Below, in pieces: positions 1 to 42,441 of a stretch of 42,441 nucleotides of DNA. The DNA lies in assembly GCA_021847945.1 (NCBI GenBank), contig JAJZNG010000107.1, forward strand, positions 1 through 42,441, read 5' to 3'. How positions within the stretch are numbered: position 1 is the first letter of the stretch; each line of letters begins with the position of its first letter. The notes under the pieces are model-generated. The model ran no database searches. It had not been told where the DNA came from and saw nothing but the letters and a program-made list of their open reading frames with translations. A program made the position numbers and the translations under genes. This DNA is from Actinomycetes bacterium. Its GTDB lineage: Bacteria > Actinomycetota > Acidimicrobiia > Acidimicrobiales > Palsa-688.

Positions 1-349
1 AATCCTCGTTGATCAAAGTGGCGTTCGTCTGGATCGTGTGCGACACCTTCTGCCCCGGCCGGCGGTAACGCTTGGCGGCTTCGACGACCTGCTTGAAGAA
101 CGTAAGTCCCATGAGCGTCGGCTCGCCACCCTGCCATGCGAGCGTCACGTCTCGGGCTGTTTGGGATTCCAAGAGTTGCCGGACGTAGTTCTCCATCAGT
201 TGGAGGCTCATCCGGAAACGATCCCCCGGGTAAAGCGTCTCTTTGGAGAGGTAGTAGCAGTACGAACAGTCCAAGTTGCAAATTGCCCCGGTAGGTTTCG
301 CCATGATGTGGAAAGCGCCGGGTGCTTCCGGCGGGCGAGGCGCTGGCAT
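1..349 (-). CDS. Anaerobic-type sulfatase-maturating enzyme (anSME), N-terminal part, cut by window edge
   Basis: Radical SAM enzyme that oxidises the active-site cysteine of sulfatases to formylglycine in the cytoplasm. About 116 residues are visible. They hold HIMAKPTGAICNLDCSYCYY with the SAM cluster cysteines CxxxCxxC (C24, C28, C31), then WQGGEPTLMG and QTNATLINED, all hallmarks of anSMEs. I chose the ATG at 349; in-frame GTG codons lie further upstream, so the start is uncertain. The frame runs off the window after NED. The C-terminal two thirds of an anSME sit at the other end of the window (41532-42441), also on the minus strand and starting two residues further on, so the two may be one gene on a circular molecule. 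It is divergent from rhaB. All four sulfatases in the window carry the Cys-type motif this enzyme acts on. Confidence 0.9.
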   Translation of the reverse strand, partial: MPAPRPPEAPGAFHIMAKPTGAICNLDCSYCYYLSKETLYPGDRFRMSLQLMENYVRQLLESQTARDVTLAWQGGEPTLMGLTFFKQVVEAAKRYRRPGQKVSHTIQTNATLINED

Positions 350-764
350 CGCAGGAGAGCCGGCCCCGCCCGGGTAGGCCGATTTCGTCGTAGCCCGAAG
401 CACCACCGGAGTGCCTGAGCTCCGCGCGGCGGGCGCGGTGCCAGACGGGCAGCCGTTTTTCACATCCACCCTCGACAATGTAGCGCCCGCAAGACCGCCC
501 AGGTGCCAGCCGAAGTCGGGGAGCAAGGCCAGAAAACACCCGGTGATAGGTAGAGATCGCCGGCGGTGTTTGACTCGGGGGTTTTCCTAACGTATAGTTG
601 AAGCGATTCAACGTCATCTAGTTTCCCCCTGCGTGGGGCTTGTCATCGGGGTGGGTCGGCTTTGGAGTTGAGGGGAGTGCAATCTTGCAATCCAGCCGTC
701 TAGTCGACGCCTTCAGCCGAGGACGCATAACAGGTCGTGTCCCGGCGTCCGCCCGAGAAGTTAA
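350..764. other. Intergenic region between anSME and rhaB
   Basis: A 415-base divergent region. The only clear elements are the rhaB promoter and the LacI-type operator at 570-611. The part nearest the anSME (350-560) is GC-rich; I see no convincing gene, RNA or terminator in it. Part of it may be coding if the anSME starts at one of the upstream in-frame GTG codons. The single operator could serve both divergent genes. Confidence 0.5.
570..611 (+). promoter_or_regulatory. rhaB promoter with LacI-type operator
   Basis: A -35 box TTGACT (570-575) and a -10 box TATAGT (593-598) are separated by 17 bases. Directly after the -10 lies TTGAAGCGATTCAA (598-611), an inverted repeat centred on CG that matches the locus-wide operator TTGAAACGTTTCAA at 12 of 14 positions. 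A repressor bound here would cover the transcription start. Confidence 0.7.
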
Positions 765-2258
765 ATGACTGCTCCGTGGTGGGCTGCGGTGGACATGGGC
801 GCGTCCAGTGTTCGAGTTCTAGCAGCATCGTGGAGCGGAGATCGGATCGAGGTCAGTGAGGTGGGGCGTTTCGCCAACCGGCCAGTCGCTTTGCCTGACG
901 GACTCCACTGGGACATAACAGGACTTTGGAACGGAGTGCTCCGACTGCTGAAGGGTGAATCAGCTCGGCGGGGGGCGCCTTTGAGCATAGGAGTTGATGG
1001 TTGGGCGGTGGACTACGCCCTCCTCGACGGCGATGGTTGCCTGCTGGGACTGCCTTACCATTACCGTGACCTGCGAACCCGGGGCCGGGTGGCCGAACTG
1101 GACGGCATCGTCGGCCTCGATAACGCCTTCTCAAGGACAGGTGTACGAGCGTTGGAGCTCAACACCCTCTGCCAGCTCCTCGCAGAGCGTGACCGAGCAG
1201 CGTACAACGCAGCCAGCTGCCTGCTGCTTCTTCCAGACCTGATCTGCTTTTTCCTTACCGGCGCTCGGATCGCCGAGCGCACCAATGCCACGACGACGGG
1301 ATACTTCAGTCGAGACGGTCGCTGGGACGATGAGCTTCTCGATCTGTGTGGCCTTCGCCATGACTGGTTTCCCGAGGTCGTCGAACCAGGCTTCTCACTA
1401 GGAGCCCTGCGGCCGGCTCTCCGCCGGGAACTGGGCTTCGACGAGCCAGTTCAGGTTATGACCGTGGCCAGCCACGACACGGCTTCGGCGGTGGCAGCAG
1501 TGCCGGCCGTGTCGGGAACGCCAGCTTACGCTGTTGCCGGCACGTGGTCTCTTGTCGGCTTGGAGCTCGCGCGACCTGTACTGTCCGAAGAGGCCCGACT
1601 GGCCGGTTTCACGAACGAAGGCGGCGTGGACGGGACGGTGCGTTTCTTGCAGAACGTGATGGGATTCTGGTTGTCCCAGGAGTGCGAACGCTGGTGGGGT
1701 CACCGATGTCCGCAGCCCGACTTGTCAACTGCAAAAGACTGCTGGGCTGCGGTCTTCAATCCCGACACCCCCGGCTTGGGGGATCGGGCGGATGACATGC
1801 CCGGGCGGATACGCAACGCCATCACGGAAGCGGGCGGCATAGCTCCGTCCGATGAGGCCGGGCTGACCTTGTCCGTCCTTGCTAGCCTCGCTGCTACTTA
1901 CGCTGTCGTGCTGCGACAAGCCGAAGAGCTCTCGGGTGTGACCTCCGAGACTTTTCACCTGGTCGGCGGGGGCAGCGCAAGTTCAGTCCTCGCGCAGCTG
2001 ACAGCAGATGCTGTCGGCCGGGAGGTGGTTACGGGACCCGTGGAAGCCTCCGGGGTCGGCAACCTGCTTATCCAGCGGCGCAGCACAGGAGAACTGGCCG
2101 AACGTGGTGGTCTAAGGGCCGTAGTCGCCCGTTCGCAGCGTTTGCGACGTTACGAACCCCGTTCCGACGGGCGCCAACGAGCCATGGGAGCAGTAGAGAT
2201 CATCGGGCGCTTACGCGGAGTTACCTCAGGTGGCGCGACGGCAGGCTCGCTACAGTGA
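765..2258 (+). CDS. rhaB: Rhamnulokinase
   Basis: FGGY-family sugar kinase expected to phosphorylate L-rhamnulose to L-rhamnulose 1-phosphate in the cytoplasm. The 497-residue length is close to known RhaB proteins (about 490). Visible motifs: N-terminal nucleotide-binding VDMGASSVRVLA; the rhamnulokinase-type stretch GVDGWAVDYALLDGDG, then GLPYHYRDLRTRGR and LELNTLCQL; and a C-terminal phosphate-binding loop FHLVGGGSAS. The ATG start has a weak upstream purine stretch (GAGAAG). It lies downstream of a strong promoter with an operator and is followed by the sugar importer, which has its own promoter. With RhaM, RhaI and RhaEW elsewhere in the window it completes the phosphorylating rhamnose pathway. 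Confidence 0.93.
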   Translation: MTAPWWAAVDMGASSVRVLAASWSGDRIEVSEVGRFANRPVALPDGLHWDITGLWNGVLRLLKGESARRGAPLSIGVDGWAVDYALLDGDGCLLGLPYHYRDLRTRGRVAELDGIVGLDNAFSRTGVRALELNTLCQLLAERDRAAYNAASCLLLLPDLICFFLTGARIAERTNATTTGYFSRDGRWDDELLDLCGLRHDWFPEVVEPGFSLGALRPALRRELGFDEPVQVMTVASHDTASAVAAVPAVSGTPAYAVAGTWSLVGLELARPVLSEEARLAGFTNEGGVDGTVRFLQNVMGFWLSQECERWWGHRCPQPDLSTAKDCWAAVFNPDTPGLGDRADDMPGRIRNAITEAGGIAPSDEAGLTLSVLASLAATYAVVLRQAEELSGVTSETFHLVGGGSASSVLAQLTADAVGREVVTGPVEASGVGNLLIQRRSTGELAERGGLRAVVARSQRLRRYEPRSDGRQRAMGAVEIIGRLRGVTSGGATAGSLQ

Positions 2259-2348
2259 TATTCGGGCGGAGCCCGGGCGGCCTGACCATGGATTGCCCGG
2301 TGGTGGTGGCCCTTGGCTGGGCGTCGTGGCACAGGCCTCAAAAGTCCC

Positions 2349-2651: not shown

Positions 2652-3638
2652 TTGGTCAAATCAGATCTGACCTACCCCGACCAGCGGGTAGTCACTGATC
2701 AAACAAAAGCCAATCTCCAACCCCGAAGGAAGAGACGAACTCATCGCCACACGTGGCTCCTGTACGTCGTGCTTCTACCTGTCTTCGGGCTTCTAGCCCT
2801 GACCAACTACTACCCTGCGTTCAGCGGCATCTACCATTCCTTCTTCCACTGGCAGCCTGGATATAGCTCTCCGTTCGCCGGGCTGAGCCACCTGAAGGAC
2901 ATGCTCGCAGACAGTCTGTGGTGGCAGTCCTTCGTCCACATCGGCGAGATCTTCGTATGGGGCGTCACCCTAGGTTGGATCTTCCCGCTTCTCGCTGCCG
3001 AACTGATAATCACTCTCACCAGTAGACGCCTCCAGTTCATCTTCCGGACGCTACTGATAATACCGTTCGCGTTTCCGCTCGTTGTCAGACTGCTGATTTG
3101 GGATTTCCTCTACGACCCTAACAACGGTTTAATCAACAAGGTGTTACACGATGTTGGTCTCGGCTTTCTTGCACAGAACTGGCTAGGCAACCCGCACACC
3201 GCTCTACTGTCGCTGCTGTTCATCAACTTCCCGTGGATCGCGTCGCTGCCTTTCCTCATCTTCCTGGCGGGTCTTCAAAACATTCCCGCTGCGATCTTTG
3301 AAGCCGCTGCACTTGACGGAGCAGGACGGATACGGCGATTCTGGTCGATTGATCTTCCCATCCTCGGACGGCAGTTCAAACTGCTCTTCGTCCTAGCCAT
3401 CATCGAAGTTCTGCAGTATGGAGTAGCGTCCCAGATACTTACCGGAGGTGGACCGAACTACGCCACTAATGTCCCTGTCCTCGAGGCAATCAACGCTGCT
3501 TTCAACGAAGACAGGTGGGGATATGGAGCTACCTTGGGCAGCGTTCTCTTCTTACTTATTCTCCTCCTAAGCGCTATCACATTGAGCGTACGCCGGCGAA
3601 AGCCCAATGAGAAGGATCTAGCAAGTGCAGTCAACTAA
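2652..3638 (+). CDS. CUT1-type sugar ABC importer permease 1 (MalF/UgpA-like)
   Basis: Integral membrane subunit of a carbohydrate ABC importer, 328 residues. A basic, hydrophilic N-terminus of about 35 residues precedes six predicted hydrophobic segments. The cytoplasmic EAA loop that docks to the ATPase is visible as EAAALDGAGRIRRFWSIDLP. The TTG start is supported by AAAGGAG six bases upstream and by a following sequence rich in charged residues. It overlaps the start of permease 2 by 14 bases. The substrate is inferred from context: rhamnose- and xylose-containing, sulfated oligosaccharides. The transporter genes look less GC-rich than the sulfatase genes. Confidence 0.9.
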   Translation: MVKSDLTYPDQRVVTDQTKANLQPRRKRRTHRHTWLLYVVLLPVFGLLALTNYYPAFSGIYHSFFHWQPGYSSPFAGLSHLKDMLADSLWWQSFVHIGEIFVWGVTLGWIFPLLAAELIITLTSRRLQFIFRTLLIIPFAFPLVVRLLIWDFLYDPNNGLINKVLHDVGLGFLAQNWLGNPHTALLSLLFINFPWIASLPFLIFLAGLQNIPAAIFEAAALDGAGRIRRFWSIDLPILGRQFKLLFVLAIIEVLQYGVASQILTGGGPNYATNVPVLEAINAAFNEDRWGYGATLGSVLFLLILLLSAITLSVRRRKPNEKDLASAVN

Positions 3639-4476
3639 ACTTCTAGGTAGGCCCCGCAAGAACAGGCGTCGGCGTACACAGATTATCGTCGCATCCATAT
3701 TAAGCCTGTTGGCATTTATAGGACTCTTCCCGTACCTGTTCATGCTCGTCACGTCACTTAAGACTAACCCTCAGTTTTATCATTCGTACCTGTATCCAGT
3801 TCTCCCGTTTCACTTCGGCAACTACGTAGCGGCTTGGAATGAACTCGAGCCCTACTTTGTTACATCCGCTGTCGTTGCGATTTCGACGATTGTGGGGTCG
3901 ATCATACTGGGATCGGGAGCGGCCTTCGTGTTCGCCCGGTTTGACTTCTTCGGACGGACCTTCTTGTTTGTACTGATCGCCATCCTGCTAGCCGTCCCAA
4001 GTGTCACCACGCTGATACCCCTGTTCCTGTTCATGAGGGATCTCGGTCTTCTCAACACCCGGCTGGTTTTAATCCTGCCCTACATCGCGGGTTCCACGAT
4101 CCTCACCGTTGTGATCATGAGAACTTTCGTGGAGCAGCTACCCGCGGAGCTCTTCGAGGCTAGCCAGCTCGACGGGGCCGGAGGATTCCGCATGTACTGG
4201 AACATGATGCTTCCCCTTTCCTTACCGATCATCGGAACTGTGACGCTGCTGTCGATCGTCGGTGTCTGGAACGATTATTTCTGGCCCTTGCTCACAATCA
4301 CCCAAAATAATCTGCGCACGGTTCCCGTAGGTCTTACATACTTTCAGGGACAGAACTCCACCGCTTACGGGCCGCTCTTTGCGGGTTATACGATTGCGAG
4401 CGTCCCTCTGCTTGTCTTCTTTACGCTGCTATCCAAGTGGTTGTTAACAGGCATCGAGGGAGGGTTGCCCACGTAG
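3625..4476 (+). CDS. CUT1-type sugar ABC importer permease 2 (MalG/UgpE-like)
   Basis: Second membrane subunit of the importer, 283 residues. It begins with a short basic tail (GRPRKNRRRR) followed by six hydrophobic segments. The ATPase-docking EAA loop reads EASQLDGAGGFRMYWNMMLP, typical of MalG-like proteins. The GTG start lies 14 bases before the stop of permease 1, so the two are probably translationally coupled. The binding protein follows after 131 bases. No gene for the nucleotide-binding subunit is present here or elsewhere in the window, as is common for actinobacterial CUT1 systems that share a general MsiK/UgpC-type ATPase. Confidence 0.9.
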   Translation: MQSTKLLGRPRKNRRRRTQIIVASILSLLAFIGLFPYLFMLVTSLKTNPQFYHSYLYPVLPFHFGNYVAAWNELEPYFVTSAVVAISTIVGSIILGSGAAFVFARFDFFGRTFLFVLIAILLAVPSVTTLIPLFLFMRDLGLLNTRLVLILPYIAGSTILTVVIMRTFVEQLPAELFEASQLDGAGGFRMYWNMMLPLSLPIIGTVTLLSIVGVWNDYFWPLLTITQNNLRTVPVGLTYFQGQNSTAYGPLFAGYTIASVPLLVFFTLLSKWLLTGIEGGLPT

Positions 4477-4607
4477 GTTAGTTATTTTGTGACCTGCGGC
4501 CTTATAGGTCCGAAGGACGTCGTGGCAGGGGGTTGAGGGATATAGCGGAATCCAGGTTGTCGATAGTTGTCCCGTGTTAGTAAAGCAATTTTAAGAAAGG
4601 ACGAAAT

Positions 4608-6104
4608 ATGCCGAAGTCAGAAAAGGATCGTCGGACCAGTACCACGACAGCGCTCAAGATTCTCGGGGGGGGCTTGGCGTTGGCGGTCACGGCATCTGCC
4701 TGCACCTCTAGTTCCACCAAGAGCAGTCAGGCGTCGTCAGGTGCGACGACCGCTCCGTCGGTGACGATCACGATCGCCGGACCTAACCAGTTCAATAATG
4801 ACACAAACACATTTGGGAACGCATGGAACTCACTCGTCGCGTCGTTCGAGCAGGTCAACCCCTCGATACATGTCAACACGGAGGTTTTGCCCCTTGCCAC
4901 GTTCAATCAGACTGAGTCGACGGAGTTAGCTGCCGGTACGGCGCCGGCGTTGGTGTTCGATCAGGCGACGTACAAGCCGTACATGGTGACGAACTTGGAC
5001 TCGTATCTCAATCAGCCGGATCCCTACGTCCCGGGAAATAAGAAGTGGATTGACGTGTTTAACCCGGAGTACTTCGGGTTCAACGTTGTCGGTGCGGTCA
5101 ACGCGCAAGGTCACATAAACGTGATCCCGTTCAACGAGGTAGCGGTTGGTCTGTTCTACAACAAGACGGCCTTCGCGAAAGCTGGGATCACCGCGCCGAT
5201 AACGACGTGGACTCAGTTCGCCAGTGACGCTGCGAAACTGTCCGCGGCGGGGTACACGCCGCTGTCCATGCAGTCAGGCTCGCTCGGCGTCGGCTGGATC
5301 CTGGACACCATCTGGAATATGCTGGCCCAGCAGTACTTCTCCGCTTGGAACCTTTACACCCCCACGGGGGCGTCTGGGACGAGTCCGCAGCTGACCACTG
5401 AGGATGTCACCCGTGCTATCACGACTGGGGCGTTGAACACGAACCTGCCGGCGGTAGCTGAAACGTTGCGTCTGACCAAGCAGATGCTATCGCAGTGGTC
5501 GACTCCCAACTGGTCGGGCGTAGCCGATACCGGCGGCGGATCAGTGGTCGCGTTGCAGAACTTCTACACCGGCAAGGCCGCCATAGCGTGGGGTAGCGAC
5601 TACGCGAAGGGTTCTTTGAAGGGTGCCAGCTTCCAATACGGCACGATGCCTTTCCCCACGGTGACCAGCGCGACGACCTCGGTGTCGCAGAACTTCCCGG
5701 CCGAGTTCGGAATCTCCGGTACGGGCGGAACGACTTATATGATCCCGTCGACGACCAAGGGAGCCCAGCTGGCCGCGGCAATCAAATTCCTGCAGTTCGT
5801 TACCGCTCCGAAGTACAACCAGCCTTGGATCGAAGCAACCGGGGCCCTGCCGATAGTGCAAGGGGTTGCGGTACCTTCGAGCGATGCTGGTCTTTTGGCA
5901 GGGTCGTGGGGTAAACCACGCACGATGGGGCCTTTCCCCGGTGGAGCAGGAGCCAACAACAACGAGGTGGTTACCGAGGGTTACCTGCTCGGCGACAAGA
6001 GCATGAGCTCCGAGCTCAGCTTCCTTGAAAGCCAGTGGAAGTCCTATGCGCAACTGCAGATTTCTACCAACGGTTGGCAGAACCTTTCGTGGGCGAAGGG
6101 CTGA
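4608..6104 (+). CDS. Extracellular sugar-binding lipoprotein of the ABC importer
   Basis: Family 1 solute-binding protein of 498 residues that would capture the oligosaccharide outside the membrane and deliver it to the two permeases. The N-terminus has a basic stretch, a hydrophobic segment (LGGGLALAVTASAC) and a lipobox-like cysteine (C32), followed by a Ser/Thr/Ala-rich linker typical of actinobacterial lipoproteins. The mature part has the expected features, for example SFEQVNPSIHVNTEVLP near the start and IPFNEVAVGLFYNKTAF in the middle. The ATG is preceded by AGAAAGGA. A strong hairpin terminator follows. It is the only clearly exported protein among the degradation genes of this window apart from the permeases. 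Confidence 0.9.
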   Translation: MPKSEKDRRTSTTTALKILGGGLALAVTASACTSSSTKSSQASSGATTAPSVTITIAGPNQFNNDTNTFGNAWNSLVASFEQVNPSIHVNTEVLPLATFNQTESTELAAGTAPALVFDQATYKPYMVTNLDSYLNQPDPYVPGNKKWIDVFNPEYFGFNVVGAVNAQGHINVIPFNEVAVGLFYNKTAFAKAGITAPITTWTQFASDAAKLSAAGYTPLSMQSGSLGVGWILDTIWNMLAQQYFSAWNLYTPTGASGTSPQLTTEDVTRAITTGALNTNLPAVAETLRLTKQMLSQWSTPNWSGVADTGGGSVVALQNFYTGKAAIAWGSDYAKGSLKGASFQYGTMPFPTVTSATTSVSQNFPAEFGISGTGGTTYMIPSTTKGAQLAAAIKFLQFVTAPKYNQPWIEATGALPIVQGVAVPSSDAGLLAGSWGKPRTMGPFPGGAGANNNEVVTEGYLLGDKSMSSELSFLESQWKSYAQLQISTNGWQNLSWAKG

Positions 6105-6184: not shown

Positions 6185-6219
6185 CGGGCTACTTTGCTGG
6201 TCACGATCAGGGTAGCGTG

Positions 6220-7545
6220 ATGGCGGACGTAGCCGGAGGCGGGGGAAACCCGATCATCCCCAAGCGTGGTGTCAACGATCCGCACATCCACGTGTTCGGC
6301 GACAAGGCATACGTGTATGCCTCCCACGATGCCTCCCCGCAAAACGAGGGTTTCGTGATGAGAGACTGGCATGTGTGGTCCTCCCGTGACCTCGTGCACT
6401 GGACGCACTGCTCCACCTTGCATCCGGCAGATACATTCCTCGGAGATAGACCGAACTTCGTGTCCGCCTGGGCTACTGACGCCGCGGAGAAAGATGGACG
6501 GTACTACTGGTATTTCTCGGACGGTGACCGCCAGATCGGTGTCGTAACCGGCGAGAGTGCCTGTGGCCCCTGGAGCGACCCTCTCGGTCGGCCTCTTATA
6601 GCCGCTGGAACCACGCCAACCATGGCCTACGATCCGGCGGTGTTCGCCCAGGGCGACGAGCGTTACCTTGTGTTCGGCTGTTGGAACTATCACATCGCAA
6701 AACTTGGCGATGACATGATCTCGCTCGCCGAAGAACCCCGCGAACTGGTCATCCGTAATGCGGAGGGACCTTATACTTTCGCAGCCGACTCGCCGCTCGC
6801 CGGCAAGCTCACCGACGACAAAGCCTTCCTTCACAAAAGGGGCAATGTGTACTACCTGTCGTGGGGCGTCTACTACGCAACGTCGCGCGATCTGTACGGA
6901 CCCTACGATTACCGGGGCGTGATCGTAGGGGAGACCAGCTTCCCGACGGGATTGGACACTCCAACCTGGCCTTTAGGCCCTCGTCAGGGCAGGCACGGGT
7001 CGTTTTTCGACTGGCACGGACAAAGTTACTTTGCGTTCTGCGACATCTCTCAGACGGGCAACCGATACTTCAGAGACACGTTCGTGAGCTACGTTCACTA
7101 CCGGCGGGACGGTACGATCGCTCCTATACGAGTCGACCGGATCGGTGTCGGCAACTACGACGCAGCATCAGGTCCCATCGACGCCGCTGACTTCTTCGCG
7201 CTTCAGAACGCGGACAAGCAGGAGAGGGATGGGTTTCCTGATCGATTCGTCGTCGTCCCCTCAGGAACACGTGAGGCCAGGGCGTGTTATCCCCACGTCA
7301 GGGGCCTGGCGCACTGCACGGAGGTGGCGTTGGCTGTCGTTGCTGAGGGCGGCAGCGAAGGGGAGATAGAAGTTCTCGGAGGAGACGAGTGCCGGTTGCT
7401 AGGAAGACGGCAAGTGAGCTTCGATGCTGACGGTACCGAACAGGTGACTTTCGAAATCGGCCCGCTGGGAAGCGAGGAGACGATCACTATCTCGTGGCGC
7501 TGTTCGCGCGGACGCTTGATGTTAGAGCGCTTCTGGTTCCGCTGA
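6220..7545 (+). CDS. Glycoside hydrolase family 43-type enzyme (cytoplasmic)
   Basis: Five-bladed beta-propeller glycosidase, 441 residues from the ATG at 6220 (GTG at 6217 is also possible). GH43 features visible: NPIIPKRGVNDPHIHVFGD with the probable base D20; SSRDLVHW; MAYDPAVFAQGDERYLVFG with the second aspartate D138; and DDKAFLHKRGNVYYLSWG, the region where most GH43 enzymes carry the acid Glu. Here that position reads Asp-Asp (199-200), while an EGP triplet occurs earlier at 182-184, so the general acid is unclear. Residues after about 330 form an extra, probably beta-rich domain. There is no signal peptide, so it should act on imported oligosaccharides, perhaps as a beta-xylosidase or arabinofuranosidase. 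It converges on the exporter genes with only 20 bases between. Confidence 0.8.
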   Translation: MADVAGGGGNPIIPKRGVNDPHIHVFGDKAYVYASHDASPQNEGFVMRDWHVWSSRDLVHWTHCSTLHPADTFLGDRPNFVSAWATDAAEKDGRYYWYFSDGDRQIGVVTGESACGPWSDPLGRPLIAAGTTPTMAYDPAVFAQGDERYLVFGCWNYHIAKLGDDMISLAEEPRELVIRNAEGPYTFAADSPLAGKLTDDKAFLHKRGNVYYLSWGVYYATSRDLYGPYDYRGVIVGETSFPTGLDTPTWPLGPRQGRHGSFFDWHGQSYFAFCDISQTGNRYFRDTFVSYVHYRRDGTIAPIRVDRIGVGNYDAASGPIDAADFFALQNADKQERDGFPDRFVVVPSGTREARACYPHVRGLAHCTEVALAVVAEGGSEGEIEVLGGDECRLLGRRQVSFDADGTEQVTFEIGPLGSEETITISWRCSRGRLMLERFWFR

Positions 7546-11470: not shown

Positions 11471-11643
11471 ATCGCCTGTGAGGCCGACGGCGGATACCTG
11501 CGCTTCGCGCAGGATCGGTCTCCAAAGGGCAACCACCTGGTCCTATGCGATCCGAGCCGTGCGTATCACGCCCAGCGGTGCCGGACTCTCGGTCCGAGGC
11601 CAGCAGACCCGCAGGGGAAGGCACCGCGACCGGGGCAGCCGTC

Positions 11644-13683: not shown

Positions 13684-13769
13684 GGTAACCTCGCACGCAG
13701 ACGCTAACGAACCGCCGGGTAAGTCAGGCAGACGTCGGGAACCCGACCAAACCTTCGTATCGGACGGAC

Positions 13770-13812
13770 TTGAATCGTTTAAAGTATATGCCTCGGAGGC
13801 ACGGTGATGCAA
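13770..13812 (-). promoter_or_regulatory. rhaEW promoter and LacI-type operator in the rhaEW-rhaM divergent region
   Basis: Read on the minus strand: -35 TTGCAT (13807-13812), 18-base spacer, -10 TATACT (13783-13788), then the operator TTGAATCGTTTAAA as seen on the plus strand (13770-13783), 12 of 14 matches to the consensus. It lies between the rhaEW TTG start and the rhaM GTG start, so one operator could control both directions. Confidence 0.68.
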
Positions 13813-14287: not shown

Positions 14288-14310
14288 TCTGCAGAGTTGG
14301 GGAAGGACAC

Positions 14311-30410: not shown

Positions 30411-30437
30411 CCACCGGTTTGGGTGACCAATAAAGCG

Positions 30438-33315: not shown

Positions 33316-33378
33316 GGATACGCCTAACTCTAGGGAGACTCACGATAGCTTCGGGGATGGACACCCCCACCACGCCAC

Positions 33379-33407
33379 AGTCTAAGACCCACAGTGAAAC
33401 GTTGCAA
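33379..33407 (-). promoter_or_regulatory. lutA promoter overlapped by LacI-type operator
   Basis: On the minus strand: -35 TTGCAA (33402-33407), 17-base spacer, -10 TAGACT (33379-33384). The operator GTGAAACGTTGCAA (plus-strand view, 33394-33407; 12 of 14 matches) covers the -35. It sits in the gap between lacI and lutA, nine bases past the lacI stop. Confidence 0.65.
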
Positions 33408-33415
33408 TAGTGGGT

Positions 33416-35607: not shown

Positions 35608-35743
35608 CGTTTCTCGCTCCTGGTAAGCGTTGTTTTATGCTCGTTTATGGTCCAGTCGAAACTTTGATGAGGCGTTATTCGGTTGGTGATTAGCTGTTGC
35701 CCTGTTCGCCTCACGGCATGGAAGACACTACCGACGAGGGAGG

Positions 35744-36595
35744 TCAGGCGGGTGGGTGTGTGTCGGCGAGGATGGCGGCGAGGGTACCGCCGAGGATGGC
35801 CTCGCGGTCCGCTGAACCGAGGAAGCTAGCGTGGGTCCGGAGCACTTCCAGGCTTTGGCGGTAGGTGCAGTAGCGGCGAGAGGCGGGAAAGTCCGACCCC
35901 CAGCACAATCTCGCTGGCCCATACGCCTCGAACAGCACCCGGAACACGGCGAGGGCGTCCGACCAGGGGTGGTCCCAGCTAGTAGAGGACACATAGTGGT
36001 ACCCAGACGCCTTGAGGACGATATTCGGGACCGCAGCCGACGCCAGGATCTCTGCGAGGTCGGCGCCGTCGGGTCGCGCACCGGGGGCCGGCAATCCGAG
36101 GTGGTGGCACAGCACCGTCAAGTCCGGATGACGCCCGGCCAGTGTCCGAAGGTCCGCCTGCCAGCACGGTGCAACCGAGAGGCTTAAGACGACTCCGAGG
36201 GTTTCGGCAGTTGCGAAGAACGAGTCCGCTTCGGGACTCCGCAGCCAGCCGTCGTTGGTCGACCCCAGATAGTGGGTGATGCCGGCGGGCCTGTATGCGT
36301 CGTAGAGCTGGCGGAGCCTGCCGGGGGCTCCGGCGGTGTGGTAGGTAGGGCTCCACGAGGAGTCGACGTCGACGAAGTGACGCACCCGTGTCGGGTAGCG
36401 AGCGGCGATGGCAGCTCCGTAGTCGTTGTTGTCGGGATTGCCGGTGATCTCCGCTGAGATGAGCACTGCGAACTCGACGTCGTGGCAGTCCATTTCGTAG
36501 AGGAGCTGCTCCACCCGACCGCGACTGTCCTCGTCGGGCGGCAGTGGTGGGTAGGGCCAGCGCCTCCAAGCGTGGCAATGACTATCGGCGATCAT
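35744..36595 (-). CDS. Amidohydrolase-2 family protein, candidate sugar-acid lactonase
   Basis: Metal-dependent TIM-barrel hydrolase of 283 residues. It starts at MIADSHCHAWRRW (metal-binding HxH) and contains LCHHLGLP, LKASGYHYVS and CWGSDFPASRR, the pattern of the COG3618 group that includes L-fuconolactonase and L-rhamnonolactonase. Opening the lactone would link a rhamnose dehydrogenase to the rhamnonate dehydratase in the next operon. The frame is open to 36775, but the ATG at 36595 is chosen. It has GAGG six bases upstream, begins exactly at the conserved N-terminus, and leaves the operator at 36620 outside the gene. The lactonase role is inferred. Confidence 0.82.
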   Translation of the reverse strand: MIADSHCHAWRRWPYPPLPPDEDSRGRVEQLLYEMDCHDVEFAVLISAEITGNPDNNDYGAAIAARYPTRVRHFVDVDSSWSPTYHTAGAPGRLRQLYDAYRPAGITHYLGSTNDGWLRSPEADSFFATAETLGVVLSLSVAPCWQADLRTLAGRHPDLTVLCHHLGLPAPGARPDGADLAEILASAAVPNIVLKASGYHYVSSTSWDHPWSDALAVFRVLFEAYGPARLCWGSDFPASRRYCTYRQSLEVLRTHASFLGSADREAILGGTLAAILADTHPPA

Positions 36596-36619
36596 CTTGG
36601 ACCTCAAACGGCCACCGTC

Positions 36620-36634
36620 GTGAAACGTTATAAT
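36620..36634. promoter_or_regulatory. LacI-type operator and -10 box between the lactonase and thuA operons
   Basis: GTGAAACGTTATAA (36620-36633), 11 of 14 matches to the consensus and centred on CG. On the plus strand it overlaps a perfect -10 hexamer TATAAT (36629-36634) facing thuA. No good -35 is visible. It lies 25 bases upstream of the lactonase start and 140 upstream of thuA. Confidence 0.55.
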
Positions 36635-36773
36635 GCATGTTCGGAGTTTAGGCTCCGGCTGGACTTGTGCTAGGCCCAGCCGTGTGGCTCGTTGCGGGAG
36701 TGGTGGGCTGCATTGAAGGCAACCTGTCGATGACCTCTGAGGGGGACAAGAGCATGAACCAGACGACCGCGAC

Positions 36774-37439
36774 ATGAACGGGAATGCCAGACGAGCCCTT
36801 GTAGTCTACGGTGGGTGGGAAGGCCACGAACCGGCCGCGGCGGCAGGGCTAGTTGCCGACTGGCTGGCAGCGGACGGGTTCGTCGTGGAGCGTTCGGACT
36901 CCTTGGAGTGCTACCTCGACAGCGCTTTGATGCAGGTGACCGACCTCGTGGTGCAGTGCTGGACCATGGGGGACATCACCCCTGCCCAGTTCGCCGGGCT
37001 GCGCGACGCGATCCGATCCGGGACCGGGCTGGGAGGTTGGCACGGAGGCCTCTGCGACGCGTTCCGCGACGTCCCTGAGTACCACTTTATGACCGGCGGG
37101 CAGTGGGTAGCCCACCCCGGGGGCTCGCAACGCGAATACGCCGTCGACTTTGCGCCTACGAGCGACGATCCGATCATCGCCGGGTTGGCGGGCTTTCATG
37201 TCTGCTCGGAGCAGTATTACCTGCACGTCGACCCGCGGATCGAGGTTCTAGCCACCACTACCTTTTCTGCCACCCCGGACGCCCCGTGGGTCGACGGGTG
37301 CGTGATGCCCGTCGTCTGGAAGCACCGATACGGTCTAGGGCGGGTCTTTTACACTTCGATCGGGCACCGGGCAGTTGACTTAAGCGTCCCCGAGGTCAGC
37401 CTCCTCCTGCGTCGGGGGTTAACGTGGGCGAGCCGGTGA
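36774..37439 (+). CDS. ThuA-domain protein (trehalose-utilisation-like)
   Basis: Class I glutamine-amidotransferase-like fold of 221 residues, found with sugar oxidoreductases of the Gfo/Idh type. Conserved pieces: ALVVYGGWEGHEPA, GTGLGGWHGGLCDAFR, SEQYYLHVDPRIEVL and MPVVWKHRYGLGRVFYTSIGH. Its biochemical role is not settled for the family; ThuA-ThuB pairs are linked to oxidised sugars. The ATG overlaps the stop (ATGA) of a seven-codon reading frame at 36754-36777 (MNQTTAT) that has the better ribosome binding site (GAGGGGG), which may couple translation. The Gfo/Idh gene overlaps its end. Confidence 0.88.
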   Translation: MNGNARRALVVYGGWEGHEPAAAAGLVADWLAADGFVVERSDSLECYLDSALMQVTDLVVQCWTMGDITPAQFAGLRDAIRSGTGLGGWHGGLCDAFRDVPEYHFMTGGQWVAHPGGSQREYAVDFAPTSDDPIIAGLAGFHVCSEQYYLHVDPRIEVLATTTFSATPDAPWVDGCVMPVVWKHRYGLGRVFYTSIGHRAVDLSVPEVSLLLRRGLTWASR

Positions 37440-38524
37440 CACCCCTGCGGGTGGGGATCATAGGGTGCGGTGCTATAAGCGGCCGCTACCTGTCAGCGTC
37501 CTACGACGCCTACCAGGTGGTCGCGTGCGCCGACTTGGACATGGCACGTGCCGAGTCGGTCGCGGCCTCGCACGGCGTGAAAGCCCTTCCCGTCGCTGAG
37601 CTACTCGAAGACCCAGCGATCGACGTGGTCTGCAACCTCACCAACCCTGGCGCTCACGGCGAAGTCACCCAGGCGGTTCTAAACGCCGGCCGGCACGTCT
37701 ATCAAGAAAAGCCGCTGGCTCTCGATCGCCAATCTGGCGCAGCGAACCTCGAAGCCGCCAGCCGCAACGGACGTCTGCTCGGCTCGGCGCCCGACACGTT
37801 TCTCGGGGCCGGCTTGCAGCTTTGTCGACATCTGATCGACGACGGCGTCATCGGCGAGCCCATAGCTGGCTCCGCCTCCATGCTGTGTCACGGCCACGAG
37901 TCGTGGCACCCCGATCCAGCCTTTTACTATCGCAAAGGCGGAGGTCCGCTCCTCGACATGGGACCGTACTATCTGACGGCTTTGGTCGCTCTCCTCGGAC
38001 CGGTAGCGGCCGTGAGCGCGATCGCCCGCACGACGTTTCCCGAGAGGGTGGTGTCGAGCGCTCCCCGGGCCGGGGAGCGGATCGCAGTCGAGGTACCCAC
38101 GCATGTCGGAGCGCTCGTCGAGTTGGTGTCCGGTGCGATTTTCAGCCTGGTCACCAGCTTCGACGTCTGGCATCCCCGTAGTTCGATGTTCGAGATTTAC
38201 GGCACGGAAGGCTCCCTTTCAGTGCCCGACCCCAACACTTTCGCGGGACCGGTGCGCGTCTTCACCCCTGGCAGCCAGTGGAGTGAACACCCCACGGGCG
38301 ATCTGCCCGTTCAGCAGCGTGGGGTGGGTATGGCGGACCTGGCCGCAGCGGCGACGTCGGGCAGGCCGCTGAGAGCTAGCGGCGCTCTTGCCTACCACGT
38401 GCTGGACGTGATGCTCGGCGTCATCGAAGCGGTCGAGACGGGCCGCCGGGTGGAGATCAACAGCAGGGTCGACCGGCCTTCGCCTTTGCCGGTCGGGCTA
38501 AGGCCGGGGGAGATGGATCCGTGA
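37436..38524 (+). CDS. Gfo/Idh/MocA-family sugar oxidoreductase
   Basis: NAD(P)-dependent oxidoreductase of about 362 residues. The Rossmann motif GIIGCGAISG is at the N-terminus. CNLTNPGAHGEVTQAVLNAG, the EKPLALD motif with its catalytic lysine and the YYRKGGGPLLDMGPYYLTAL segment (catalytic Asp-x-x-x-His-type region, with Tyr in the usual His place) follow. It could oxidise a free sugar such as L-rhamnose to the lactone, or act on a keto-sugar with ThuA. The GTG at 37436 overlaps the thuA stop (GTGA); GTG at 37424 is also in frame. The rhamnonate-dehydratase-like gene follows after 126 bases. Confidence 0.87.
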   Translation: MTPLRVGIIGCGAISGRYLSASYDAYQVVACADLDMARAESVAASHGVKALPVAELLEDPAIDVVCNLTNPGAHGEVTQAVLNAGRHVYQEKPLALDRQSGAANLEAASRNGRLLGSAPDTFLGAGLQLCRHLIDDGVIGEPIAGSASMLCHGHESWHPDPAFYYRKGGGPLLDMGPYYLTALVALLGPVAAVSAIARTTFPERVVSSAPRAGERIAVEVPTHVGALVELVSGAIFSLVTSFDVWHPRSSMFEIYGTEGSLSVPDPNTFAGPVRVFTPGSQWSEHPTGDLPVQQRGVGMADLAAAATSGRPLRASGALAYHVLDVMLGVIEAVETGRRVEINSRVDRPSPLPVGLRPGEMDP

Positions 38525-38574
38525 CCTGCAGTGGTGACAGGACCCTGTGCGATCACCTGACGCCGGACGAGTGC

Positions 38575-38590
38575 TTGGGAACAGTCCCAA
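38575..38590. repeat. Small perfect inverted repeat
   Basis: TTGGGA and TCCCAA separated by four bases (38575-38590) in the gap between the Gfo/Idh and enolase genes. It could be a small RNA hairpin or a binding site. It does not match the LacI-type operator. Confidence 0.3.
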
Positions 38591-38650
38591 CGCGAAGACA
38601 AAGCTGACGGCCCGGGACGCTCCCGGTGCCGGCCTAGAAAGGATGCTCGA

Positions 38651-39784
38651 ATGCGAATTACGAAGGTCACCGCCACCACGTTCCGGCCTGCGGACACACG
38701 ACGATCGCCTTCTTGGCTGTCGGAGAGCCGGATAGCGAACCCCATGTCGATCTACCCTGCCTACGCGGCGCGGCGATCGTCGTGGACCGCCGGGTTCCCA
38801 GCCACTCTTGTGCGCGTCAGCACTGACGACGGCCTGGAGGGAATCGGGACGGCGATCGGCGGCCGGGCTTCAGCTGACATAATAAACGGCCACTTTGGGA
38901 GCCTTCTCCAAGGTCAAGACCCGATGGACATCGAGCGTCTCTGGGACCAAATGTGGAGAGCTTCGCTGCCATACGGCAGGCGCGGTCTACCCGTCATGGC
39001 CATTTCAGGCGTCGACGAGGCGCTTTGGGATCTGCTCGGAAAGGCGGCCGGAGAACCCGTCTACCGGCTCCTCGGCGGTTCCTGCAGAGATGACCTACCC
39101 GTCTATCAGACGACCAACGACCCTGCCGACTGGGCCGAACTGGACGGGGTCGGCGTGAAGCTGGCCATGCCGCACGGCCCTGCTGACGGGCGCCCCGGGA
39201 TGCTCGCCAACGTAGCCTTAATCCGCGCTTGCCGCGAAGCGATAGGCCCTGAACGGGATGTGATGCTCGACTGCTACATGGCGTGGGACGTTGAGTACAC
39301 GCGCCGGATGGTGCACCTGGTCGAAGAACTGGGTGTCCGTTGGGTCGAGGAGCCCCTACCCCCCGACGACTACCACGGCTACGAGCGACTTTCGCGTCTC
39401 GACTCACCGGTTGCGATCGCCACCGGTGAGCACGAGTACAGCCGCTGGGGTTTCACAACCTTGATAGGAACAGGTGGGGTCACGGTTCTCCAGCCTGACG
39501 TAGGTTGGGTGGGAGGGATCAGCGAAGCCCGTCGCATCTGCCAGCTGGCCTCGTGCTACCACCTTATGGTCGTTCCTCACGCCGGCGCGCTCCAAGCCGC
39601 CGCCCTGCACCTGATGCGCAGCCAGGTCAACACGCCGCTGGCGGAATGGGTGCGCACCTGGGATCGGGCCACCGGCCGGCCCGCCCCGGCTCTCGAAGGA
39701 CTGCCCGAGCCGGTTTCGGGGCGTATCGCCCCCAGCGAAGAGCCAGGCCTCGGCATTCGGATCGGTGCGGTTGTCGAAGACTGA
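38651..39784 (+). CDS. Enolase-superfamily dehydratase, L-rhamnonate dehydratase-like
   Basis: Sugar-acid dehydratase of 377 residues expected to convert L-rhamnonate to 2-keto-3-deoxy-L-rhamnonate. It shows the RhmD pattern: SIYPAYAARRSSW, MWRASLPYGRRGLPVMAISGVDEALWDLLGK, KLAMPHGPADG, MLDCYMAWD (metal ligand D207), WVEEPLPPDDYHGY (E233 or E234), ATGEHEYSRWGF (E260), QPDVGWVGGISEA and VVPHAG (H310). Most RhmD proteins read QPDVGWCGG, so one position differs. The ATG has GAAAGG upstream. In combination with the lactonase-like gene and the aldolase at 29595 it makes up a non-phosphorylating rhamnose route. L-fuconate, D-xylonate or another acid is a less likely substrate. Confidence 0.85.
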   Translation: MRITKVTATTFRPADTRRSPSWLSESRIANPMSIYPAYAARRSSWTAGFPATLVRVSTDDGLEGIGTAIGGRASADIINGHFGSLLQGQDPMDIERLWDQMWRASLPYGRRGLPVMAISGVDEALWDLLGKAAGEPVYRLLGGSCRDDLPVYQTTNDPADWAELDGVGVKLAMPHGPADGRPGMLANVALIRACREAIGPERDVMLDCYMAWDVEYTRRMVHLVEELGVRWVEEPLPPDDYHGYERLSRLDSPVAIATGEHEYSRWGFTTLIGTGGVTVLQPDVGWVGGISEARRICQLASCYHLMVVPHAGALQAAALHLMRSQVNTPLAEWVRTWDRATGRPAPALEGLPEPVSGRIAPSEEPGLGIRIGAVVED

Positions 39785-39865
39785 GATCCGCAGCCGGCCG
39801 TCCCTCGGGAAGGTCCGGCACACCTGCGGAGAGTGTGAATAAATATGCGTAGTGTTCAATAAGCA

Positions 39866-39879
39866 CTAAGACGGTTCGA
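39866..39879 (+). promoter_or_regulatory. Weak LacI-type operator upstream of the MDR dehydrogenase
   Basis: CTAAGACGGTTCGA, only 9 of 14 matches to the consensus but centred on CG and placed 14 bases before the start codon, close to the CAGGAG ribosome binding site. Confidence 0.3.
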
Positions 39880-39893
39880 ACAGGAGTTAAGCG

Positions 39894-40946
39894 ATGGTCA
39901 AAGTTACGAGCTCTGCAAAACAAACCTCACGTGGAGAGCCCGAACAGGCTCCGACGCGTGGCGTGGAGTTCCCACAGCCCTACGTCATAGAATTCACCGA
40001 GACGACGACCGGTCTGTCGGATCTTGCTGACCACGAGGTTGTCGTAGCTGCGCGCTACAGCGTTCTAAGCCCGGGAACGGAACTTGCTAGGTACCGGGGT
40101 GAAACGTTTGGTTCGCGTAACCACGGAGGGTTCCCTTTTCGTCCTGGCTATGCGATGGCCGGCGTCGTGCTGCGCGCCGGTAGCGAAGCCGGCGTCGAGG
40201 AAGGAACGGAGGTCCTCTCCTACACCCCACATCAGTCCGTTTACCGTTTCGACCGGCGCAAGGTGATCTGTGTCGACATCCCGCGTGGTCTTCCACTCGG
40301 CGTCGCCCCGTTCGGACGGTTGGCCCAGGTGGGTGCCGTGGCCCTCCAGGTGTCAGCGGCCAAGCCAGACGATGTCGTAGTAGTCGTCGGGCTTGGGCCG
40401 ATCGGAAATCTTGCTGCTCAGCTCGCCGCCGCCAGCGGTTACCGCGTCGTTGGAATCGAGAAGTCGGACTACAGGCGCCGTGTAGCTCGCGCATGCGGCC
40501 TGCAGCGGGTGGTGGATCCCTCGGCGGCCCGGGCCGAGCTCGATAGCCTCGGAGGGGCAAGGCTTGTCCTGGAATGCTCCGGCAGCACCGCAGCCCTGCT
40601 CCTAGCGACGGACCTCTGCACGTCTTACGGCGAGATTCTTACTGTCGGAGCCCCTTGGAAGACCGAAGCGGATGTCACGGCGAGCGCGATAGTTGGACGG
40701 ATCTTCGAGAAGTACCTTACCTTGCGTAGCGGCTGGGAGTGGCAGCTACCAAGATACGACGATCGCACCGGTCGTTCAGTGGAAGCCAGCCTTGAGTGGG
40801 TCCTCCGCAAGATAGAAGACGGTTCGATAGTGACCGGCCCACTCGTGAGCGGAACGCTGAAGCCGGAGGATGCTGCAAGGGGGTATCAACTTCTAGATGC
40901 AAGCCCAGAGGAGAATTTTACGTTCCTCTTGAACTGGGGTGAGTGA
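39894..40946 (+). CDS. Medium-chain dehydrogenase/reductase without catalytic zinc
   Basis: MDR-superfamily oxidoreductase of 350 residues. The nucleotide-binding motif is VVVVGLGPIGNLAAQLAAASG. In place of the usual zinc-binding Cys near the N-terminus it has YSVLSPGTELARYRG, the SPGTE variant seen in MDR proteins from sugar-degradation clusters, so it is probably not a zinc alcohol dehydrogenase. PGYAMAGVV and VGAPWKTEADVTASAIVGR are also typical of that variant. ATG start with CAGGAG nine bases upstream. Possible roles are oxidation of a sugar, a sugar alcohol or a rhamnose-derived intermediate. Stands alone, downstream of the ThuA-Gfo-enolase operon. Confidence 0.85.
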   Translation: MVKVTSSAKQTSRGEPEQAPTRGVEFPQPYVIEFTETTTGLSDLADHEVVVAARYSVLSPGTELARYRGETFGSRNHGGFPFRPGYAMAGVVLRAGSEAGVEEGTEVLSYTPHQSVYRFDRRKVICVDIPRGLPLGVAPFGRLAQVGAVALQVSAAKPDDVVVVVGLGPIGNLAAQLAAASGYRVVGIEKSDYRRRVARACGLQRVVDPSAARAELDSLGGARLVLECSGSTAALLLATDLCTSYGEILTVGAPWKTEADVTASAIVGRIFEKYLTLRSGWEWQLPRYDDRTGRSVEASLEWVLRKIEDGSIVTGPLVSGTLKPEDAARGYQLLDASPEENFTFLLNWGE

Positions 40947-41081
40947 TCTAGGAGCGTTCTGAGCTGATAGGGGACCGGGGCGAAGCTAGGCGTTGTAGCG
41001 CAGGTGCACTTCGTCTGCGTGGCATGTTGTCCAGGGTAGGGTATGGGGGCAAATCCCTTTAGAGACTAGGAGCGTCTGATA

Positions 41082-41498
41082 ATGGTGTTGGTAGCTCGTG
41101 CGTTGACCTTCGTTGACTCTTTTCGTGCGCCGGTGGCGGTGAGCGCGCATTGTGATCTGCCGTGCGGTGTGTATGACCCTGCTCAGGCTCGCATCGAGGC
41201 GGAGTCAGTGAAGGCTTGTATGGAAAAGTTCAATGCTTCTGATGACAACGTGTTCAAGACGCGTGCTGTTTTGATCAAGGAGGAGCGGGCCGAGCTGGTC
41301 AAGCATCATCTTTGGGTGTTGTGGACGGATTATTTCAAGGCGAACCACTTGGAGGCGCACCCGGGGTTGCATGATCTGTTCTGGAAGGCGACGAAGTCTG
41401 CGGGTGAGTCCAAGAAGACCAACGACACGGCTGTGGCCGACGAGTTGCTGGCTCACATAGCGGAGATCGACAAGATCTTCTGGGAGACCAAGAAGTAG
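41082..41498 (+). CDS. sodN: Nickel superoxide dismutase precursor
   Basis: Removes superoxide in the cytoplasm. The protein has 138 residues. The Ni-hook HCDLPCGVYDPAQARIEAES begins at residue 23: the new N-terminal His, Cys2 and Cys6 of the mature enzyme bind nickel. A 22-residue leader must be removed by a SodX-type peptidase. RAELVKHHLWVLWTDYFK and IDKIFWETKK complete the family pattern. The ATG has AGGAG upstream. The partner peptidase gene sodX, usually adjacent, is not in the window. It converges on the anSME gene with a shared terminator. It has no evident metabolic link to the sugar genes, though oxygen-sensitive radical SAM and iron-sulfur enzymes lie close by. Confidence 0.95.
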   Translation: MVLVARALTFVDSFRAPVAVSAHCDLPCGVYDPAQARIEAESVKACMEKFNASDDNVFKTRAVLIKEERAELVKHHLWVLWTDYFKANHLEAHPGLHDLFWKATKSAGESKKTNDTAVADELLAHIAEIDKIFWETKK

Positions 41499-41509
41499 AC
41501 AACCCCCAA

Positions 41510-41546
41510 GGGCGTTCCCGCCGGCCTGGGTTCAGCGGGAACGCCC
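41510..41546. terminator. Bidirectional hairpin terminator between sodN and anSME
   Basis: A perfect 12-base stem (41510-41521 with 41535-41546, GGGCGTTCCCGC and its complement) and a 13-base loop, starting 11 bases after the sodN stop. The stop codon of the anSME gene on the minus strand falls in the loop (41532-41534), so one arm is also coding. Confidence 0.75.
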
Positions 41547-42441
41547 ATGGCACCACTTGGTCTTCATGTTGCTTCCGCAGGGGCACGGGCTGTTGCGGGG
41601 CGCTTGGGCGAACACTGCCATGACGTCGGCGGCGGGTCGTCGTGCGTGCAAAAGGCCGGACATGAGACGCATAGGGCCGTCGACGTGGTGGAAGAAGCGC
41701 TTGTAGCCTGCGCAGAGGTAGTTGAGTCCGGGTTCCCCGTCTGGGGTTTCGATAAAACGGTTCTTGGGGCATTCCCCATGGCATGCGAACAGCACGTCGC
41801 AACTTCGACAGTAACCCGGGAGGGTGTCCCTCTTGGCCTCTCCGAAGCTGCGCTGGCGCTCCGAGGCAACAAGATCGAGAAGGTGCGTCTGGTTTATGTT
41901 GCCTAGCAGGTGCTGCGGGTCGACGAAGTGATCGCAGGAGTAGACGTCCCCGTTGTGCTCCAAGGCCAAAGCGTCACCGCAAGTCTCCGCGAACACGCAC
42001 AGGCCGGAGGGAACACCAACCCATGCGGCTAGCGCCGCGTCGAAGGTCTGGACGAACACCGATCCGACGTCGCGTACCAACCACTCGTCGAAGATTGCAC
42101 TCAGAAATGTCCCCCAGCCTTCGGCTGGTACCGACCGGTCACTGACAACGCTTTGTTCGGTCTCAGAGTTGCAAACCTCGACTATCGGTATCAACTGTAT
42201 GAATTTGGCCCCGCAGTCATCGCGGAGGTAGCGGTACACCTCGAGCGGATGATCGACGTTGGCTGCGTGAACCGAACACAAGATGTTGTATTCGACGTCA
42301 TGCCGGCGCAGGTAGCGAAGGCCCGCGACCACTCTGGAGGAGGTCTTTCGCCCGTGCTTGTCGACCCGGTAGGCGTCGTGTAGTTCAGGGGGACCGTCAA
42401 CGCTGACGCCGACCAGGCACTTCTCCTCGGCTAGAAACTCG
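41532..42441 (-). CDS. Anaerobic-type sulfatase-maturating enzyme (anSME), C-terminal part, cut by window edge
   Basis: About 302 residues are visible. They begin EFLAEEKCLVGVSVDGPPEL, which in anSMEs follows directly after QTNGTLL-DxxW, and include DHPLEVYRYLRDDCGAKFIQLIPIVE. The SPASM domain follows, with the auxiliary-cluster cysteines in FAETCGDALALEHNGDVYSCDHF and YCRSCDVLFACHGECPKNRF. The last residues, NSPCPCGSNMKTKWCHG, form a SEC-C-like zinc motif. Reading starts with the second base of the window end (42440). Together with the N-terminal piece at 1-349 and two missing residues it would make an anSME of about 420 residues. It would activate the four sulfatases. Confidence 0.92.
   Translation of the reverse strand, partial: EFLAEEKCLVGVSVDGPPELHDAYRVDKHGRKTSSRVVAGLRYLRRHDVEYNILCSVHAANVDHPLEVYRYLRDDCGAKFIQLIPIVEVCNSETEQSVVSDRSVPAEGWGTFLSAIFDEWLVRDVGSVFVQTFDAALAAWVGVPSGLCVFAETCGDALALEHNGDVYSCDHFVDPQHLLGNINQTHLLDLVASERQRSFGEAKRDTLPGYCRSCDVLFACHGECPKNRFIETPDGEPGLNYLCAGYKRFFHHVDGPMRLMSGLLHARRPAADVMAVFAQAPRNSPCPCGSNMKTKWCHGRSR

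Follow-up and report, generated by a model that had tools for sequence, protein, structure and literature searches.

The window, the whole stretch of 42,441 bp analysed here, probably carries an enlarged form of the actinobacterial LacI-type RhaR regulon, directed at sulfated rhamno- and xylo-oligosaccharides and located on a contig whose two ends are adjacent. It constitutes an entire contig (C38) of a 3.0 Mb assembly in 243 contigs. There is good support for a dedicated, co-regulated actinobacterial system that acts on sulfated rhamnose/xylose oligosaccharides and includes an ABC importer, and its genes look to be held together by a LacI-type rhamnose regulon.

Sulfatases, maturase, glycosidases and importer

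Pfam and NCBIfam scans identify four sulfatases (PF00884) on the plus strand, at 20106–21551 (S1), 21594–23042 (S2), 26430–27959 (S3, with its true start near 26559) and 28045–29598 (S4), and in each the formylglycine position is occupied by cysteine, in the motifs CTPAR, CVPSR, CVPAR, and CVPAR respectively. No signal peptide was seen in the S1–S2 pair (20106–23042). The PDB matches of S1–S4 are spread across many sulfate esters and give no decisive subfamily. In a search of 397 genomes of the order with S2, matches above the strict limit were found only in the window's own genome (G000), in FK5.bin99 (G002, the bin of a congeneric species), and in G216, whose homologue is 59% identical.

The radical-SAM sulfatase maturase (anSME) is encoded on the minus strand in two parts, an N-terminal part (1–526, PF04055; probable start near 415) which leaves the left end of the contig, and a C-terminal SPASM part (41532–42441; PF13186 and anaerobic sulfatase maturase models) which enters from the right end. 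The maturase gene reported in the first-pass annotation is thus present, but not intact.

An alpha-L-rhamnosidase of family GH78 (23171–26482, plus strand; PF17389, 321 bits; PDB 3w5m, 526 bits) lies between the two sulfatase pairs, the second of which spans 26430–29598. Two GH43 enzymes are also encoded on the plus strand, one at 6217–7545 (PF04616) for which the nearest solved structures are beta-xylosidases (PDB 8hcj), and one at 15508–17163 with a C2 domain and of the beta-xylosidase/arabinofuranosidase type (PF04616, PF17851; PDB 5z5d). All of the hydrolases look cytoplasmic. A CUT1-type importer (2652–6104, plus strand) comprises two permeases (PF00528 in each) and a sugar-binding lipoprotein (PF01547, with a readable lipobox), and the importer operon contains no ATPase gene. 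No tRNA or Rfam RNA was found in the window.

Rhamnose, xylose and lactate pathways

The rhamnose route consists of the mutarotase RhaM (13853–14185, plus strand; PF05336, 104 bits), the isomerase RhaI (14311–15495, plus; TIGR02635, 632 bits, cut-off 531), a rhamnulokinase-like FGGY kinase, RhaB (765–2258, plus; PF00370/PF02782; TIGR02627, 338 bits, under the cut-off), and the rhamnulose-1-phosphate aldolase/lactaldehyde dehydrogenase RhaEW (11644–13887, minus, true start about 13674; TIGR02632, 1009 bits, cut-off 568). Xylulokinase (XylB, just under the TIGR01312 cut-off) and xylose isomerase (XylA, over that of TIGR02631) are encoded at 17164–19783 on the minus strand, as are LutA and a fused LutB+LutC for L-lactate oxidation (30438–33315; PF02589 twice, TIGR00273, PF02754). 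The scans therefore bear out the earlier inventory of four Cys-type sulfatases, GH78, two GH43 enzymes, CUT1 importer, complete RhaM–RhaI–RhaB–RhaEW set, XylA, XylB and lactate oxidation.

Several further genes could form an oxidative rhamnose branch. These encode a DHDPS-family class I aldolase (29595–30410, plus; PF00701, with the lysine of GCKDSSGD), a candidate for 2-keto-3-deoxy-rhamnonate aldolase; an aldo/keto reductase and an Amidohydro_2 protein (34672–36775, minus, true start near 36595; PF00248, PF04909), the latter a candidate rhamnono-lactonase; and ThuA, a GFO/IDH/MocA oxidoreductase, an L-rhamnonate dehydratase-like enolase (RhmD, which like RhaB and XylB scores under its NCBIfam cut-off), and a Zn-dependent dehydrogenase (36774–40946, plus). 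Adjoining these, the chromosomal Ni-SOD gene recurs together with its flanks (40988–41519, gene 41082–41498, plus; TIGR02753); this second copy matches the ends of contigs C225 and C111 at 95% and 99%, and has no sodX beside it. The RhmD, lactonase-like, aldolase and ThuA–GFO genes had been overlooked in the first-pass annotation, as had the extra Ni-SOD, the split in anSME and the LacI operators.

A LacI-family regulator and its predicted operators

A LacI-family regulator (33416–34537, minus; PF00356), the proposed RhaR, is 51–56% identical to LacI proteins encoded next to GH78 in Nonomuraea and Actinopolymorpha. Predicted LacI-type operators are positioned upstream of the catabolic operons, including those of the sulfatases and anSME. 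One, TTGAAGCGATTCAA, lies at 598–611 between the divergent anSME (minus) and RhaB (plus) genes, and another upstream of the importer operon (2380–2393). Sites between RhaEW (minus) and RhaM (plus) (13770–13783) and upstream of RhaI (14274–14287) both have related sites in G002, and one at 19900–19913 is common to XylA (minus) and sulfatase S1 (plus). The GH78 operator (23135–23148) recurs as the same site in G002 contig C60, that upstream of LutA (33394–33407) as a variant in contig C134, and that between the amidohydrolase (minus) and ThuA (plus) genes (36620–36633) is identical in contig C202. The motif matches the window 11 times where 1.4 matches are expected, and eight of these fall in the non-coding 7.6% of the window (0.13 expected; binomial 1.4e-7), with the motif built from three of the eight sites, so that five are independent. 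Similar sites are found beside the LacI–GH78–importer cassettes of Nonomuraea, Microtetraspora, and Actinopolymorpha, as well as in the G002 pieces.

Relationship to known systems

Rodionova et al. (2013, PMC3870299) describe a LacI-type RhaR in Actinomycetales whose regulon takes in RhaEW-type catabolism, an ABC importer, rhamnosidases and genes for lactate dehydrogenase. The window has the same core parts, with a LacI gene among the rhamnose genes, shared palindromic sites, RhaEW, RhaI, a kinase, an ABC importer, an alpha-rhamnosidase, and lactate oxidation genes. Unlike in that regulon, its operators also front the four sulfatases, anSME, XylAB, the two GH43 enzymes, ThuA–GFO, and RhmD, and PMC3870299 nowhere uses the word sulfatase. 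The sulfatases, anSME, the xylose genes and the oxidative rhamnose branch are additions to this known core. The GH78–LacI–CUT1 cassettes of Nonomuraea and Microtetraspora share homologues (LacI 51–53%, GH78 39–41%, importer 46–60% identical) and similar operators, whereas within the flanks examined they have no match to the sulfatases, anSME, GH43 enzymes or XylAB; with Actinopolymorpha included, the GH78 identities are 39–43%.

On a 126-kb ulvan CAZyme plasmid, Alteromonas sp. 76-1 likewise carries a gene set directed at a sulfated rhamnose/xylose glycan, with GH78, GH43, sulfatases and enzymes that process the monomers. That plasmid also encodes PL24/PL25 lyases and GH88/GH105 and has partition genes, all absent from C38, and it is extrachromosomal, whereas the observation for C38 is one of end adjacency alone (PMC6431674). 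In the part of the description of Verrucomicrobiota sulfated methyl pentose loci considered here (PMC8857213), sulfatases adjoin GH78/GH106, and rhaM, rhaB, and isomerase genes occur in the same genomes; these loci differ in phylum and in having microcompartments and sugar symporters, and no LacI-RhaR/RhaEW/CUT1 arrangement is seen in that part.

Substrate and proposed pathway

The earlier proposal of a dedicated locus for ulvan or rhamnan sulfate has in its favour the co-location of sulfatases, GH78, GH43 and both sugar pathways, including the grouping of family S1 sulfatases with GH78 and xylosidase-type GH43 that is a feature of ulvan loci, and the occurrence of sulfated rhamnose and xylose in ulvan (PMC6431674). 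However, the Pfam and NCBIfam scans detect no polysaccharide lyase, GH105/GH88, uronate route or secreted depolymerase among the contig proteins, and ulvan lyase families PL24, PL25, PL28 and PL40 are absent from the window proteins; neither that substrate nor the term near-complete is well supported. The congener FK5.bin99 may also come from an inland mine site rather than the sea, a guess from its name (FK stands for Fankou in PMC7779479, a link by name only; a literature search did not find the habitat of this MAG). We consider the ulvan or rhamnan-sulfate reading improbable, while the dedicated, co-regulated character of the locus stands. A reading in which unrelated carbohydrate genes are only loosely grouped, and the sulfatases act on another substrate, would accord with the six further sulfatases encoded elsewhere in G000, and with the S2 relative in G216, which adjoins GH120 and enolases and not GH78; with a single operator motif at sulfatase, anSME, rhamnose, and xylose promoters, we regard it as very unlikely. 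Since the contig has no lyase, GH105/GH88 or secreted depolymerase and its hydrolases look cytoplasmic, the substrate would instead be imported sulfated rhamno/xylo-oligosaccharides.

In the favoured regulon model, oligosaccharides would enter through the CUT1 importer, presumably with the help of a shared ATPase. Once they are in the cytoplasm, the four Cys-sulfatases, activated by anSME, would strip the sulfate, and GH78 and the GH43 enzymes would release free rhamnose and xylose. Rhamnose would be converted by RhaM, RhaI, RhaB, and RhaEW to DHAP and lactate, with the lactate oxidised by LutABC, probably in parallel with an oxidative branch (dehydrogenase, lactonase, RhmD, aldolase), and xylose would be processed by XylAB. 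Until a rhamnose intermediate builds up, the LacI protein is predicted to act at TTRAANCGNTTYAA operators and keep the catabolic operons repressed.

Contig ends and possible exchange

Comparison of the junction indicates that exactly 4 bp of anSME are missing between the ends of C38. The split gene is the only anSME gene of the genome, with the only N-terminal anSME match, and the other contigs of the bin contain neither a second anSME nor matching ends; C38 has no end overlap. In G216 the genes for RhmD, Zn-dependent dehydrogenase, both permeases and the binding protein are contiguous, in the order found across the C38 join. This order and the split of the sole anSME show that the two contig ends adjoin in the actual genome. 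The simplest form of C38 would be a circle of about 42.4 kb, the other possibilities being a tandem unit or a single misjoin inside the contig. The contig proteins include none for replication, partition, mobilisation, transfer, integrase or transposase functions, which leaves room for a circle, a tandem unit and an assembly error alike. Only three scattered, single-mismatch DnaA box matches are present, GC skew has no clear origin/terminus shape, and tetranucleotide usage of C38 pieces is genome-like. A search of a plasmid collection found no more than distant relatives of the sulfatases and GH78, with identities of about 30–39% at best, and a search of viral contigs with GH78 gave no match.

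Pieces of G002 are 96–99% identical to C38, compared with 79–88% for sampled chromosomal DNA, and since they are in the bin of a different species the catabolic package itself may move between bacteria; alternatively, the G002 contigs could belong to a strain of the window's species and have been placed in the wrong bin, and the record title of one of them gives a coverage of only about 2x. A chromosomal catabolic island is quite conceivable, if somewhat short of an even chance, with the circle an assembly effect of a tandem duplication, or of one misjoin inside the contig together with a break in anSME. It would fit the lack of mobility and maintenance genes in a sequence nearly all of metabolic genes, the native-looking anSME (76–79% nucleotide identity to the congener orthologue) and Ni-SOD (95–99% to the genome's own chromosomal copy), and the position of the related G216 genes within a 147-kb contig. 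Against it, the ends of C38 are common to no other contig of the bin, and G002 contigs confirm the joins over 9686–18330, 20437–27220, 29518–34233, and 36340–39940, so that few places are left for a misjoin. The intact anSME orthologue is on G002 contig C17, and as its neighbourhood has no long match in G000, it does not indicate a chromosomal place for C38. That C38 is a real circular exchangeable element of about 42.4 kb, practically only a sulfated-glycan regulon, in which no gene for replication, partition or transfer can be recognised, moving between actinobacterial species with the genome's only detected sulfatase maturase, is a tentative and rather unlikely proposition; if true, the sulfatases encoded outside C38 might rely on its maturase as well.

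The eight operators offer a direct test of the regulon model, as a single purified repressor should bind all eight DNA sites. Sulfated-rhamnose catabolism has mostly been described in marine Bacteroidota and Verrucomicrobiota, and the window would place it in a non-model actinobacterial lineage, with a strategy that would be to import first and desulfate inside, under a single repressor, and with a suggestion that such a package can be exchanged as a unit.

Gene content and predicted degradation route

The window is the complete contig C38 (42,441 bp) of a 3.0 Mb assembly of 243 contigs that is 90.5% complete, and the gene list of the first-pass annotation was confirmed by family-profile matches and sequence inspection. 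The genes comprise four Cys-type S1 sulfatases and an anSME for desulfation, one GH78 and two GH43 glycosidases, a CUT1 sugar importer, and monomer pathways represented by RhaM, RhaI, RhaB and RhaEW, by XylA and XylB, and by the Lut genes. RhaEW, RhaI, XylA and Ni-SOD score above their NCBIfam cut-offs, and RhaB and XylB below them. Absent from the earlier list were a DHDPS-family aldolase, an Amidohydro_2 protein that is a candidate lactonase, ThuA-GFO, an aldo/keto reductase, a Zn dehydrogenase and an L-rhamnonate-dehydratase-like enolase, which among solved structures is closest to rhamnonate dehydratases. Together these could constitute an oxidative rhamnose route alongside the phosphorylating one. 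The ThuA-GFO pair (36774–38524), which may provide a redox route to glycoside cleavage, has 50–56% identical counterparts in the examined flanks of Actinopolymorpha GH78 loci (L085, L086 and L099). Glycan degradation probably takes place in the cytoplasm, because the sulfatases and glycosidases start directly in their domains and a lipoprotein signal is present only on the sugar-binding protein.

Predicted operators and a proposed rhamnose regulon

An operator pattern, TTRAANCGNTTYAA, was derived from three CG-centred palindromes that are conspicuous in the intergenic DNA, and matches to it are treated as predicted LacI-type repressor sites. With up to two mismatches permitted there are 11 matches in the window versus 1.4 expected, a number not reached in any of 100 shuffles. 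Intergenic DNA makes up 7.6% of the sequence and contains eight of the 11 (binomial, 1.4e-7), compared with 0.13 expected in shuffled non-coding DNA; five operator sites played no part in deriving the pattern. The predicted operators precede anSME/RhaB, the importer, RhaEW/RhaM, RhaI, XylA and the first sulfatase gene (XylA/S1), GH78, LutA, and amidohydrolase/ThuA and, with co-transcription predicted from gene order, would cover every catabolic operon. No operator match was found before the Ni-SOD gene, nor before a heterodimeric ABC exporter pair (7566–11536) that lies within the locus. In matching pieces of a congener (G002, record FK5.bin99) the operator sites are kept or are present as close variants, and similar sites occur at LacI-GH78 loci of Nonomuraea, Microtetraspora and Actinopolymorpha.

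Actinomycetales have a LacI-type RhaR regulon with an ABC importer and rhamnosidases, and lactate dehydrogenase genes join it in some of the genomes with RhaEW (Rodionova et al., PMC3870299). The C38 system appears to be alike in its working, but would add a layer of desulfation and xylose use. It is regarded as an apparently new version of the rhamnose regulon known from actinobacteria.

Candidate substrates

Rhamnosides are suggested as part of the substrate by GH78, by an importer of the rhamnose type and by the rhamnose operators; xylose is suggested by XylAB and GH43 behind the same operators, and sulfate esters by the sulfatases with anSME. The locus had been read as dedicated to ulvan or rhamnan sulfate, a reading that is supported in part, and the occurrence together of rhamnose, xylose and sulfate-ester genes agrees with that proposal. 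Ulvan is one candidate among others: in contrast to the Alteromonas ulvan plasmid (PMC6431674), the contig has no lyases, GH105/GH88 or uronate genes. Sulfated methyl pentoses from other sources, like those proposed for Verrucomicrobiota in diatom blooms (PMC8857213), would fit the contig equally well. In Pelagicoccus sp. SDUM812005 (Verrucomicrobiota; L098), GH78 has several sulfatases close by.

Probable adjacency of the contig ends

The anSME gene is split between the two contig ends, with the N-terminal part at the left end and the C-terminal part at the right end, both on the same strand. The sole real match to each part in the source genome is on C38, and no other contig of that genome was found to share either end. 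Comparison with intact relatives indicates that two codons separate the parts; of each the contig contributes a single base, T from the first and C from the second, which leaves a gap of four bases and an undisturbed reading frame. In G216, a genome from another family of the order, the genes RhmD-ZnADH-perm1-perm2-SBP (the last three being the CUT1 permeases and sugar-binding protein) are contiguous on one strand, an order that C38 reproduces only when its two ends are brought together, Ni-SOD, anSME and RhaB then lying in between. Because the split gene and the independent gene order of G216 both call for this junction, there is a high probability that the ends are adjacent in the real genome. 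Such an adjacency could arise from a circle, from a tandem unit or from a single misjoin within the contig. C38 was found to carry no genes for replication, partition, transfer or integration.

The related locus of G216 is chromosomal (C49:67048–89703; L136–L138) and has RhmD, Zn dehydrogenases and the same importer, together with a sulfatase of the type of the window's second (S2; 59%), a GH120 protein, enolases and an IclR regulator, and is perhaps a sulfated-xyloside system.

The chromosomal Ni-SOD gene and its flanks recur at positions 40988–41519 of C38, a single-gene duplication onto the contig with related pieces at positions 1–266 of C225 and 1–110 of C111 in the source genome. The chromosomal gene is adjoined by a sodX-like peptidase gene, which was not copied to C38 and remains on C225.

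Similarity to a congener

Four contigs of G002 match C38 end to end at 96.4–99.2% nucleotide identity, compared with 79–88% between the two genomes over the chromosomal DNA sampled and 76–79% for their anSME genes. Over the matching pieces, 188 codons differ synonymously and 105 non-synonymously, with no premature stops. The similarity looks like recent transfer, although contigs misbinned into G002 from a strain of the window's own species would look the same; for one contig the record title gives a coverage of 2.05x. No copy of C38 was found in G001, the third genome of the genus. In G002 the intact anSME gene is on contig C17 (L036), where further sulfatases, several in number, and a sugar-kinase-like ORF are its neighbours; this different sulfatase cluster has no extended match in the source genome. 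The FK of FK5.bin99 may, as a guess from the name, denote the Fankou mine, for which FK is used in PMC7779479.

The interest of C38 lies in its apparent self-closure and its similarity across species, which outweigh its gene list.
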